A stretch of DNA of 56,569 nucleotides from Burkholderiales bacterium (GTDB lineage: Bacteria; Pseudomonadota; Gammaproteobacteria; Burkholderiales; Burkholderiaceae_C), in assembly GCA_011391155.1 (NCBI GenBank), contig JAABRA010000392.1:1-56569 (forward strand). The letters are read 5' to 3'. The notes under the pieces are model-generated. The model had not been told where the DNA came from, made no database searches, and worked only from the letters and a program-made list of their open reading frames with translations. Positions within the stretch are counted from its first letter, which is position 1, and each line of letters opens with the position of its first letter. Below are positions 27,422-31,228 of this stretch, piece by piece. Both the position numbers and the translations under genes were made by a program.

Positions 27422-28900
27422 ATGTTGAAACTGGAACTGAAATCTTTGCGGCAGCGGGTATTGCCGGGCGTCCTTCTTGCAGCAACGCTGGCCATGCTGG
27501 TCCCTGCTGCACCGGTCGCTGCACAGGCTGGTGCGCTGGTCCGTGGCTTGCCCGATTTCACGGAATTGGTCGAGCAGGTGGGGCCGTCGGTGGTGAACAT
27601 CCGCACCACCGAGAAGGTGCGCGCCAACGGCGGGCCAGGGGGCGGATCCGATGAAGAAATGCAGGAGTTTTTCAGGCGGTTTTTTGGGGTGCCCATTCCC
27701 AACGGGCCCCGCCCTGCGCCGCGTCAGAATCGTCCCCAGGAGGACGAGCAGCCGCGTGGCGTCGGTTCGGGTTTCATCCTGACCGCCGACGGCTTCATCA
27801 TGACCAACGCCCATGTCGTGGACGGGGCGGATGAAGTGATTGTGACCTTGACGGACAAGCGCGAGTTCAAGGCGCGTCTGGTCGGCGCCGACAAGCGCAC
27901 GGATGTGGCCGTCGTCAAGATTGATGCCGCTGGCCTGCCAGCCATCAAGATTGGCGATGTCAACCGCTTGAAGGTGGGCGAATGGGTGATGGCGATTGGT
28001 TCACCGTTTGGCCTGGAAAACTCGGTCACGGCGGGCATCGTCAGCGCCAAGCAGCGCGATACCGGGGACTACCTTCCGTTCATCCAGACCGATGTGGCCA
28101 TCAATCCGGGCAATTCAGGTGGGCCCCTGATCAACATGCGCGGGGAAGTGGTGGGCATCAACAGCCAGATCTATTCGCGTTCGGGGGGCTACATGGGCAT
28201 TTCGTTTGCGATACCGATGGACGAGGCCGTGCGCGTCAGCGAGCAGCTACGTTCCAGTGGCCGGGTGACCCGCGGGCGGATCGGCGTGCAGATTGACCAG
28301 GTCACCAAGGAAGTGGCGGAGTCGATCGGGCTCGGCAAGCCGCAAGGGGCGCTGGTGCGCGGCGTGGAAAGCGGCTCACCGGCTGACAAGGCCGGCGTGG
28401 AGGCCGGCGATATCATCACGCGCTTCGATGGCAAGGTCATCGAGAAGGCATCCGACCTGCCCCGGTTCGTCGGCAACATCAAGCCCGGGACCCGCAGCAC
28501 ATTCACGGTGTTTCGTCGTGGGGCCAACAAGGAGCTGAGCATTGTGATTGGCGAGGTCGAAGCGGAAAAGACCGCGGTTCGCAAACCGGCGGAGCGCGAG
28601 GACAAGCCCAAGCCCAGTGCCGCCGCCCAGTTACTGGGCCTGAGCGTGAGTGAACTGGGAGAGGCCCAGAAAAAGGAGTTGAAAATCAGGGGCGGCGTCA
28701 AAGTGGAAGCCGCGACCGAGAGCGCGGCGCGGGCCGGCCTGCGTGAGGGCGATGTGATCGTGCAGATCGCCAATACGGAAGTCGCCAGTGTGAAGGAGTT
28801 TGATGCGGCGCTCGCCAGGCTCGACAAAAACAAGCCCGTGAGCGTGCTGTTTCGCCGGGGCGAGTGGGCGCAATACGCGTTGATTCGGCCAGCTCGCTGA
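27422..28900 (+). CDS. degP: DegP/MucD-type periplasmic serine protease
   Basis: HtrA-family protease and chaperone. Signal peptide at residues 1-33 ending APVAAQA; trypsin-like domain with His131 (TNAHVV), Asp161 (RTDVAVVKI) and Ser232 (NPGNSGGPLIN); then two PDZ domains (about residues 280-370 and 400-485). 492 aa. GGAAGG at 27410-27415 places the start at ATG 27422 (or 27419). Last gene of the rpoE unit; in related bacteria MucD clears misfolded envelope proteins and dampens the sigma-E response. Confidence 0.95.
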   Translation: MLKLELKSLRQRVLPGVLLAATLAMLVPAAPVAAQAGALVRGLPDFTELVEQVGPSVVNIRTTEKVRANGGPGGGSDEEMQEFFRRFFGVPIPNGPRPAPRQNRPQEDEQPRGVGSGFILTADGFIMTNAHVVDGADEVIVTLTDKREFKARLVGADKRTDVAVVKIDAAGLPAIKIGDVNRLKVGEWVMAIGSPFGLENSVTAGIVSAKQRDTGDYLPFIQTDVAINPGNSGGPLINMRGEVVGINSQIYSRSGGYMGISFAIPMDEAVRVSEQLRSSGRVTRGRIGVQIDQVTKEVAESIGLGKPQGALVRGVESGSPADKAGVEAGDIITRFDGKVIEKASDLPRFVGNIKPGTRSTFTVFRRGANKELSIVIGEVEAEKTAVRKPAEREDKPKPSAAAQLLGLSVSELGEAQKKELKIRGGVKVEAATESAARAGLREGDVIVQIANTEVASVKEFDAALARLDKNKPVSVLFRRGEWAQYALIRPAR

Positions 28901-29079: not shown

Positions 29080-29308
29080 CAGGACGCCCTGAAGTCGATT
29101 ACCGGCATATTGAAATTGCAGAAGTCCACGATGCGGAATGTTGATGACACATCCGTCATTGCTCGACCTTTCACCCACACGTTGTCCATAAGATGCACTG
29201 GCAATGCTGTTAATAAGTTGTGAATAACATGTGTGTTGCAAGCCCGCAACGTCGATGCTTTGGTGGCTTCAAGGCTATGCGGCTTGGCCTTTTTGCCTAC
29301 AATGAAGT

Positions 29309-29377
29309 CCCAACTATCGCAGTTGCCTTTGATTGTTGGTTCAGGGCGCGTCAGCTTTCGACGCGCCCTTTTTTTGT
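29309..29377 (+). ncRNA. Candidate small RNA with its own terminator
   Basis: TACAAT at 29298-29303 would start transcription near 29309. The next 66 nt hold a small stem-loop CAACT-ATCGC-AGTTG (29311-29325), a U-rich linker and a strong terminator hairpin followed by seven T. No open frame is present. This is the shape of a bacterial sRNA, or of a lepA leader attenuator. No -35 match was found and no known RNA family was recognised. Confidence 0.4.
29344..29375 (+). terminator. Strong intrinsic terminator upstream of lepA
   Basis: Perfect 9-bp stem GGGCGCGTC/GACGCGCCC (29344-29352 and 29360-29368), 7-nt loop, then seven T (29369-29375). It lies 476 bp past degP and 45 bp before lepA, so it ends something transcribed within this gap or attenuates lepA. 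Confidence 0.88.
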
Positions 29378-29419
29378 CTTTCCGGCTGTTTTAATTCAAT
29401 CACTTGAAACGCATCGTTG

Positions 29420-31227
<1,808 letters not shown>

Positions 31228-31228
<1 letters not shown>

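Follow-up and report, generated by a model that had tools for sequence, protein, structure and literature searches.

In Chlamydia the small RNA IhtA represses hctA, which encodes a histone H1-like protein, and ddbA, and its loop 1 pairs with CAUGGCG (-1 to +6) over the AUG (PMC4355289, PMC8343073). In Salmonella the small RNA RaiZ represses hupA (HU-alpha) by pairing at the ribosome-binding site (PMC5391140). Bordetella S17 and the RNAs of Rfam family RF02278 (the 'toxic' sRNAs of Burkholderia) are about 67 nt long, end in a terminator and carry a region that is 100% conserved across the Betaproteobacteria (PMC11722255). Here we describe a short unit directly upstream of lepA, found in a stretch of 56,569 nucleotides of Burkholderiales DNA (the whole of which is called the window), for which an action of the IhtA kind is predicted.

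The promoter-terminator unit upstream of lepA

The first-pass annotation had pointed to a compact unit in a 519-bp gap between degP and lepA and had read it as a possible small RNA or attenuator. Gap and unit were both confirmed, with the degP stop at 28900 and the lepA ATG at 29420, and with the TACAAT box, the stem-loop and the perfect terminator ending in T7 all present at 29298-29375 of the window (Table 1). The U-rich linker that had been described between the two hairpins held up in part, as a linker is present but consists of the 4 nt UUCA, and most of the U-rich stretch belongs to the 3' arm of hairpin 1. No TTGACA-like -35 element was found before the TACAAT box. Among 180 non-redundant loci the promoter reads CTTTTTGCC-TACAAT in the 159 loci of the main group (group 1, consensus CTTTTTGCCTACAAT) and CTTTTGGC-TACAAT in the 21 loci of the second group. 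We infer a 5' end of the RNA at about 29310, 7 nt past the -10 box. The terminator arms AGGGCGCGTC-AGCTTTC-GACGCGCCCT occupy 29343-29369 with all 10 bp of the stem intact, followed by T7 at 29369-29375, and this was the strongest of 11 terminator-like sites within 9 kb; in the window it ends about 45 nt 5' of lepA. Folding of the small RNA gave -29.6 kcal/mol compared to a shuffled mean of -16.1 (z -4.4), and 0 of 200 shuffles equalled it. A small ORF starting from the ATG inside TACAATG was rejected because this start codon precedes the presumed 5' end of the RNA and because both loops vary by 1-2 nt in length between relatives, so that no frame is kept.

Table 1. Features of the unit and its surroundings, in window coordinates.
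Feature	Position	Strand	Basis or remark
Tandem DnaA-box-like sites TTATTCACA and TTATTAACA, 2 bp apart	29208..29227	-	~70-90 bp 5' of the -10 box
Inverted repeat GTTGC-N6-GCAAC	29235..29250		starts 63 bp 5' of the -10 box
-10 box TACAAT of the small-RNA promoter	29298..29303	+	preceded by the conserved spacer CTTTTTGCC (29289-29297)
Small RNA, ~66 nt	29310..29375	+	3' end at the T-tract; 5' end presumed
Hairpin 1, CCAAC-T-ATC / GAT-T-GTTGG, displays the loop	~29310..29339	+	fold; compensatory changes
Invariant loop GCAGTTGCC, putative anti-start-codon seed	29319..29327	+	nine bases in 173/174 distinct elements
Intrinsic terminator, 10-bp stem, 7-nt loop, T7	29343..29375	+	sequence, terminator scan, covariation
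lepA	29420..31228	+	immediately downstream gene in all 219 loci whose contig reaches far enough (219/219 readable loci)

Two further conserved features lie upstream of the promoter. The motif TTWTNCACA was present at the place of the DnaA-box-like sites in 140 of 180 loci (8 expected from shuffles). Of 8 genomes tested, 3 had the exact tandem pattern once, only at this position, and 5 lacked it altogether. The inverted repeat was found at -63 in 133 of the 180 loci as compared to 6-15 of 180 in shuffles. A link to sigma-E stress, suggested earlier from the neighbouring genes, found no support here as the -10 box is of the sigma-70 type and no GAACTT/TCTGA-like pair is visible upstream. The U-rich 3' end of the small RNA is compatible with Hfq.

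Conservation of the element and of its loop

A DNA search of 61 relatives showed that some 20 genera of the family share the block 29286-29480, with 74-84% identity. A covariance model made from 20 copies of the element detected it in 181 of 201 Comamonadaceae genomes (126 of 141 genera), with a single strong copy per genome. Second matches within the same genome scored below 30 bits, were terminator-like or on the reverse strand, and were rejected as extra copies. Together, the family-wide conservation of the DNA block and the covariance-model matches place the element far beyond chance. When 250 genomes across the Burkholderiales were searched, scores above 75 bits were obtained only in Comamonadaceae and all others were at or below 31 bits, and members in other Burkholderiales families were rejected on this basis. 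A pattern scan of named genomes returned Rhodoferax, Ramlibacter, Acidovorax, Polaromonas, Limnohabitans, Hydrogenophaga, Curvibacter, Delftia, Comamonas and others, which are Comamonadaceae; Polaromonas sp. JS666 and Comamonas terrae were among the carriers.

Rfam gave no family above its gathering cut-off in the window. The L20_leader match (21.5 against a cut-off of 58.7) was driven by the terminator, the weak NsiR4 and mmgR matches were also the terminator, and the AsrC match on the other strand was the lepA coding start; all four were rejected. Bordetella S17 differs in locus and sequence and was set aside as the identity of the RNA, and the Betaproteobacterial repeats of PMC3110155 lie at other loci and have other sequences. 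The literature searchable yielded no paper describing this RNA or a leader of lepA. The unit upstream of lepA is real and family-wide, and the small RNA predicted from it is apparently undescribed so far.

The structure was assessed in 87 aligned matches. In this alignment, which was fitted to the structure, 95.8% of pair cells were standard and 10 of 18 pairs showed compensatory (two-sided) changes as compared to 2.6 in shuffles, and sliding the pairing partner as a control collapsed the pairing. A separate MAFFT alignment of 20 copies supports the same helices. TACAAT and the terminator were both conserved in the aligned copies, indicating an independent transcription unit at the sequence level. 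The loop GCAGTTGCC stayed the same throughout the distinct copies with the exception of one C to T change, which can still pair as G-U, and the base that follows it was A in 169 of 174 copies, with AT in most. The stem around the loop changes freely, reading ATCAACTT/AAGTTGAT at locus L129 and CCAACAA/TTGTTGG in the second group. That the loop is fixed while the stem is not suggests that the loop base-pairs with or binds something.

Variants of hairpin 1 were also seen. Two loci (L554 and L561, from genomes G205 and G083) carry the altered loops GTTGTTGCCA and CGGTTGCCCG in an otherwise intact element. In several Comamonadaceae without the loop (L546-L549, L556, L557, L560) the promoter and the GGCGCG terminator are kept and hairpin 1 has other sequences, for example TTGACCGCTGGCG..., and these may be small RNAs with a different seed.

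Complementarity to the starts of chromatin-type genes

The family consensus of the loop, GCAGTTGCCAT, is the complement of ATGGCAACTGC, and the window copy reads GCAGTTGCCTT. Targets were located by pattern searches for TGGCAACTGC, the loop's reverse complement, in 16 Comamonadaceae genomes. When 60 sites in four genomes were read, 2-3 per genome coincided exactly with a start codon (ATG-GCA-ACT-GC); most of the remaining full 10-mer matches fell inside coding regions and probably arose by chance. At the start-codon sites ATGGCAACTGC forms the start codon and codons 2-4 of three chromatin-type genes, which encode unrelated Lys/Ala-rich proteins: a histone-H1-like (HC2-like) protein whose Pfam HC2 match falls short of the curated cut-off, a protein with a SWIB/MDM2 domain (PF02201) and one that is HU-like (PF00216). 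The genome that the window comes from has the SWIB gene (L567) and the H1-like gene (L568), each of which forms a perfect 11-bp match to the window RNA, and such a match was present in 0 of 672 other start regions; two longer 'hits' were the antisense of the RNA gene. The window's own loop ends in TT and pairs with GGCAACTGCGA and not with the U of the AUG. The element thus carries a conserved single-stranded seed complementary to the translation starts of distant mRNAs. Unrestricted duplex energies separated the targets poorly from other starts and were rejected as target evidence as they gave too little contrast to background starts. The target argument therefore rests on exact matches and codon conservation.

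The H1-like proteins (L568-L586) are repetitive and Lys/Ala-rich with a strictly conserved C-terminus, Q/K-T-x-L-N/S-PQAAWPFPT, and their genes share a conserved 5' UTR, GTGCTCTTTG...AAGGAGAAA. In most genomes searched for SWIB genes a second SWIB domain was observed in an open frame of about 1000 aa (frames of about 980-1260 aa, for example L510 and L511).

The target codons were kept in genomes with the RNA and had drifted in many genomes without it. Codon conservation was evaluated in two sets, SWIB genes, which were collected by protein similarity and hence independently of their codons, and every M-A-T-A-K-K start with any codons (MATAKK). Fisher tests, which ignore phylogeny and treat orthologues that are not independent so that significance is overstated, and in which genome G129 was counted as RNA-negative though its lepA region is absent from the assembly, gave 4e-8 for the SWIB start ATGGCAACTGC (30/30 genera with the RNA vs 7/22 genomes without it), 2e-7 for exact MATAKK starts in genomes with the RNA vs RNA-negative relatives of the same family (57/59 vs 8/20) and 7e-16 for the same 57/59 vs other families (15/55). 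The synonymous bases within the pairing region were fixed and the next wobble base past the seed varied (30 G, 27 A, 1 C, 1 T). The other MAT-starting genes near lepA provided one gene only as a control, and codons 5-25 of the MATAKK-starting genes themselves took their place: GCA made up 26 of 121 Ala codons at positions 5-10 and ACT 5 of 55 Thr codons at positions 5-25. The start ATGGCAACTGC was kept without the RNA in four genomes (G027, G098, G142 and G165), suggesting that the target codons may be ancestral or also under another constraint. Many RNA-negative relatives have a promoter and terminator upstream of lepA with another loop or none, and one of them (G163) seems to have lost hairpin 1 recently with the target codons still present.

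Proposed function, rival readings and known systems

The reading that we favor, at a probability of roughly 0.78, is that the unit encodes a trans-acting small RNA of about 66 nt that would block the start codons of chromatin-protein mRNAs. Transcription of the Comamonadaceae-specific RNA would begin at its own sigma-70-type promoter and stop at the intrinsic terminator, and hairpin 1 would present the loop (UC)GCAGUUGCC(AU). The loop is predicted to pair over 11-13 bp with AUG-GCA-ACU-GC(G-A) at the starts of the H1-like (HC2-like), SWIB-domain and HU-like mRNAs, and pairing over the AUG and codons 2-4 would block initiation and repress translation, with some polymerase reading through the terminator into lepA. 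The basis for a small RNA is the conserved promoter, fold and terminator, the invariant loop and its exact complement at the target starts; from sequence we infer the production of the RNA, its pairing in the cell, its repressive effect and the timing of its expression. Of the two original proposals the small RNA is well supported by the promoter, the structure, the conserved loop and the conserved complementary targets, though pairing with the start codons of chromatin-protein mRNAs had not been foreseen as its function. The attenuator was supported in part, by the leader described below.

A terminator does lie between the promoter and lepA, and this arrangement extends beyond the Comamonadaceae. 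In other Burkholderiales families a terminator was present just 5' of lepA in 37 of 66 cases (3.7 in shuffles), and a -10 box, short leader and terminator in 32 of 66 (0.5 in shuffles). This order-wide terminator typically reads AAGGGCAC-loop-GTGCCCTTTTTT and ends 7-20 nt before the ATG (L270-L297, L301-L340). The arrangement amounts to an undescribed and possibly attenuating lepA leader. At two Comamonadaceae loci (L110 and L126) only 0-4 nt separate the end of the T-tract from the lepA ATG, too few to hold a further promoter or a Shine-Dalgarno sequence. Taken with the order-wide leader, this suggests that lepA is probably transcribed through the terminator and that the small RNA probably doubles as the lepA leader terminated early. 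The terminated leader would then have gained its trans-acting loop in the Comamonadaceae. These same observations fit a purely cis-acting leader or attenuator of the lepA-lepB-rnc-era operon, in which polymerase starting at TACAAT would mostly stop at the terminator and hairpin 1 would sense a signal and set read-through into lepA, and so does the constant position directly 5' of lepA. However, synteny alone explains that position, and reading and folding of the leader revealed no antiterminator structure or sensing element, with no alternative pairing visible for the 5' arm of the terminator, though control mediated by a protein or an RNA may still operate. A cis-acting leader also leaves unexplained why the loop is invariant and an exact complement of the gene starts in three chromatin families and why the target codons are fixed in the same genomes, and we consider it unlikely as the whole explanation.

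The codons could instead be kept for efficient translation of abundant Lys/Ala-rich proteins, with the loop binding something else and its match a coincidence. Early codons do tend to be A/T-rich, and the MATAKK starts of other families with the same codons occur without the RNA. In those families, however, codon 3 is ACA vs ACT in 20 vs 21 cases and codon 2 varies among A, T, C and G, in contrast to the near identity seen where the RNA is present, and a chance 10-11-nt match of an invariant loop to the fixed start of three families would be very unlikely, making this explanation quite improbable. Terminators between two transcription units are ordinary, and the region could hold just the terminator of the degP operon and the promoter region of lepA without a functional RNA. 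This we find hardly credible, as a promoter precedes the terminator, the stem of hairpin 1 covaries beneath an invariant loop, and the unit is intact whether degP ends about 30 nt upstream (L019, L022) or several hundred nt upstream as in the window.

The trans-acting small RNA would be near-universal in the Comamonadaceae, a large family of environmental importance, and would come with a ready target list, and the unexplained promoter-terminator leader before lepA across the Burkholderiales may bear on control of the lepA translation factor and its operon. A broader and more doubtful proposal, which we offer tentatively from the sequence pattern, is that an RNA derived from the lepA leader under DnaA-box control sets translation of the H1-like, SWIB and HU-like proteins through a shared 'start-codon barcode', ATGGCAACTGC. 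If true, replication or growth state and ribosome-related expression would be coupled to nucleoid packaging across the Comamonadaceae.

Among known systems, the unit resembles attenuated leader RNAs in its promoter-proximal intrinsic terminator directly before lepA, order-wide, but no antiterminator hairpin, leader peptide or ligand domain was recognised in it and its loop has predicted targets in trans. Unlike S17, which adjoins coq7 and is processed from a longer RNA, it lies upstream of lepA, and the window has no RF02278 match. It would share with RaiZ the action of a trans-acting small RNA directed against translation of a histone-like protein. However, RaiZ is a ProQ-dependent product of 3' UTR processing whose pairing site is in the 5' UTR, whereas the Comamonadaceae RNA has a promoter to itself, is predicted to make contact through its loop at the start of the coding sequence and has predicted targets in three gene families. 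The closest likeness is to IhtA, in the stem-loop predicted to pair over the AUG of an H1-like mRNA, in the rho-independent terminator and in having two or more chromatin-type mRNAs as targets; in keeping with such anti-AUG pairing, the H1-like genes begin with ATGGCAACTGC and the loop is GCAGTTGCCAT in most copies. IhtA has three stem-loops and a 7-nt contact, in contrast to two hairpins and an 11-13-nt match reaching into codons 2-5, and it belongs to another phylum, lies at another position and shows no sequence relation; its repression is proven where that of the Comamonadaceae RNA is predicted. Common ancestry was rejected because the RNA has two hairpins and its strong matches stay within a single bacterial family. 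In our analysis the Comamonadaceae RNA is a small RNA that would work like IhtA and is not a member of the IhtA family. As such it would show, independently and in another phylum, a small RNA silencing histone-like proteins at the start codon, and would suggest that start-codon blocking is a recurrent control of bacterial chromatin.
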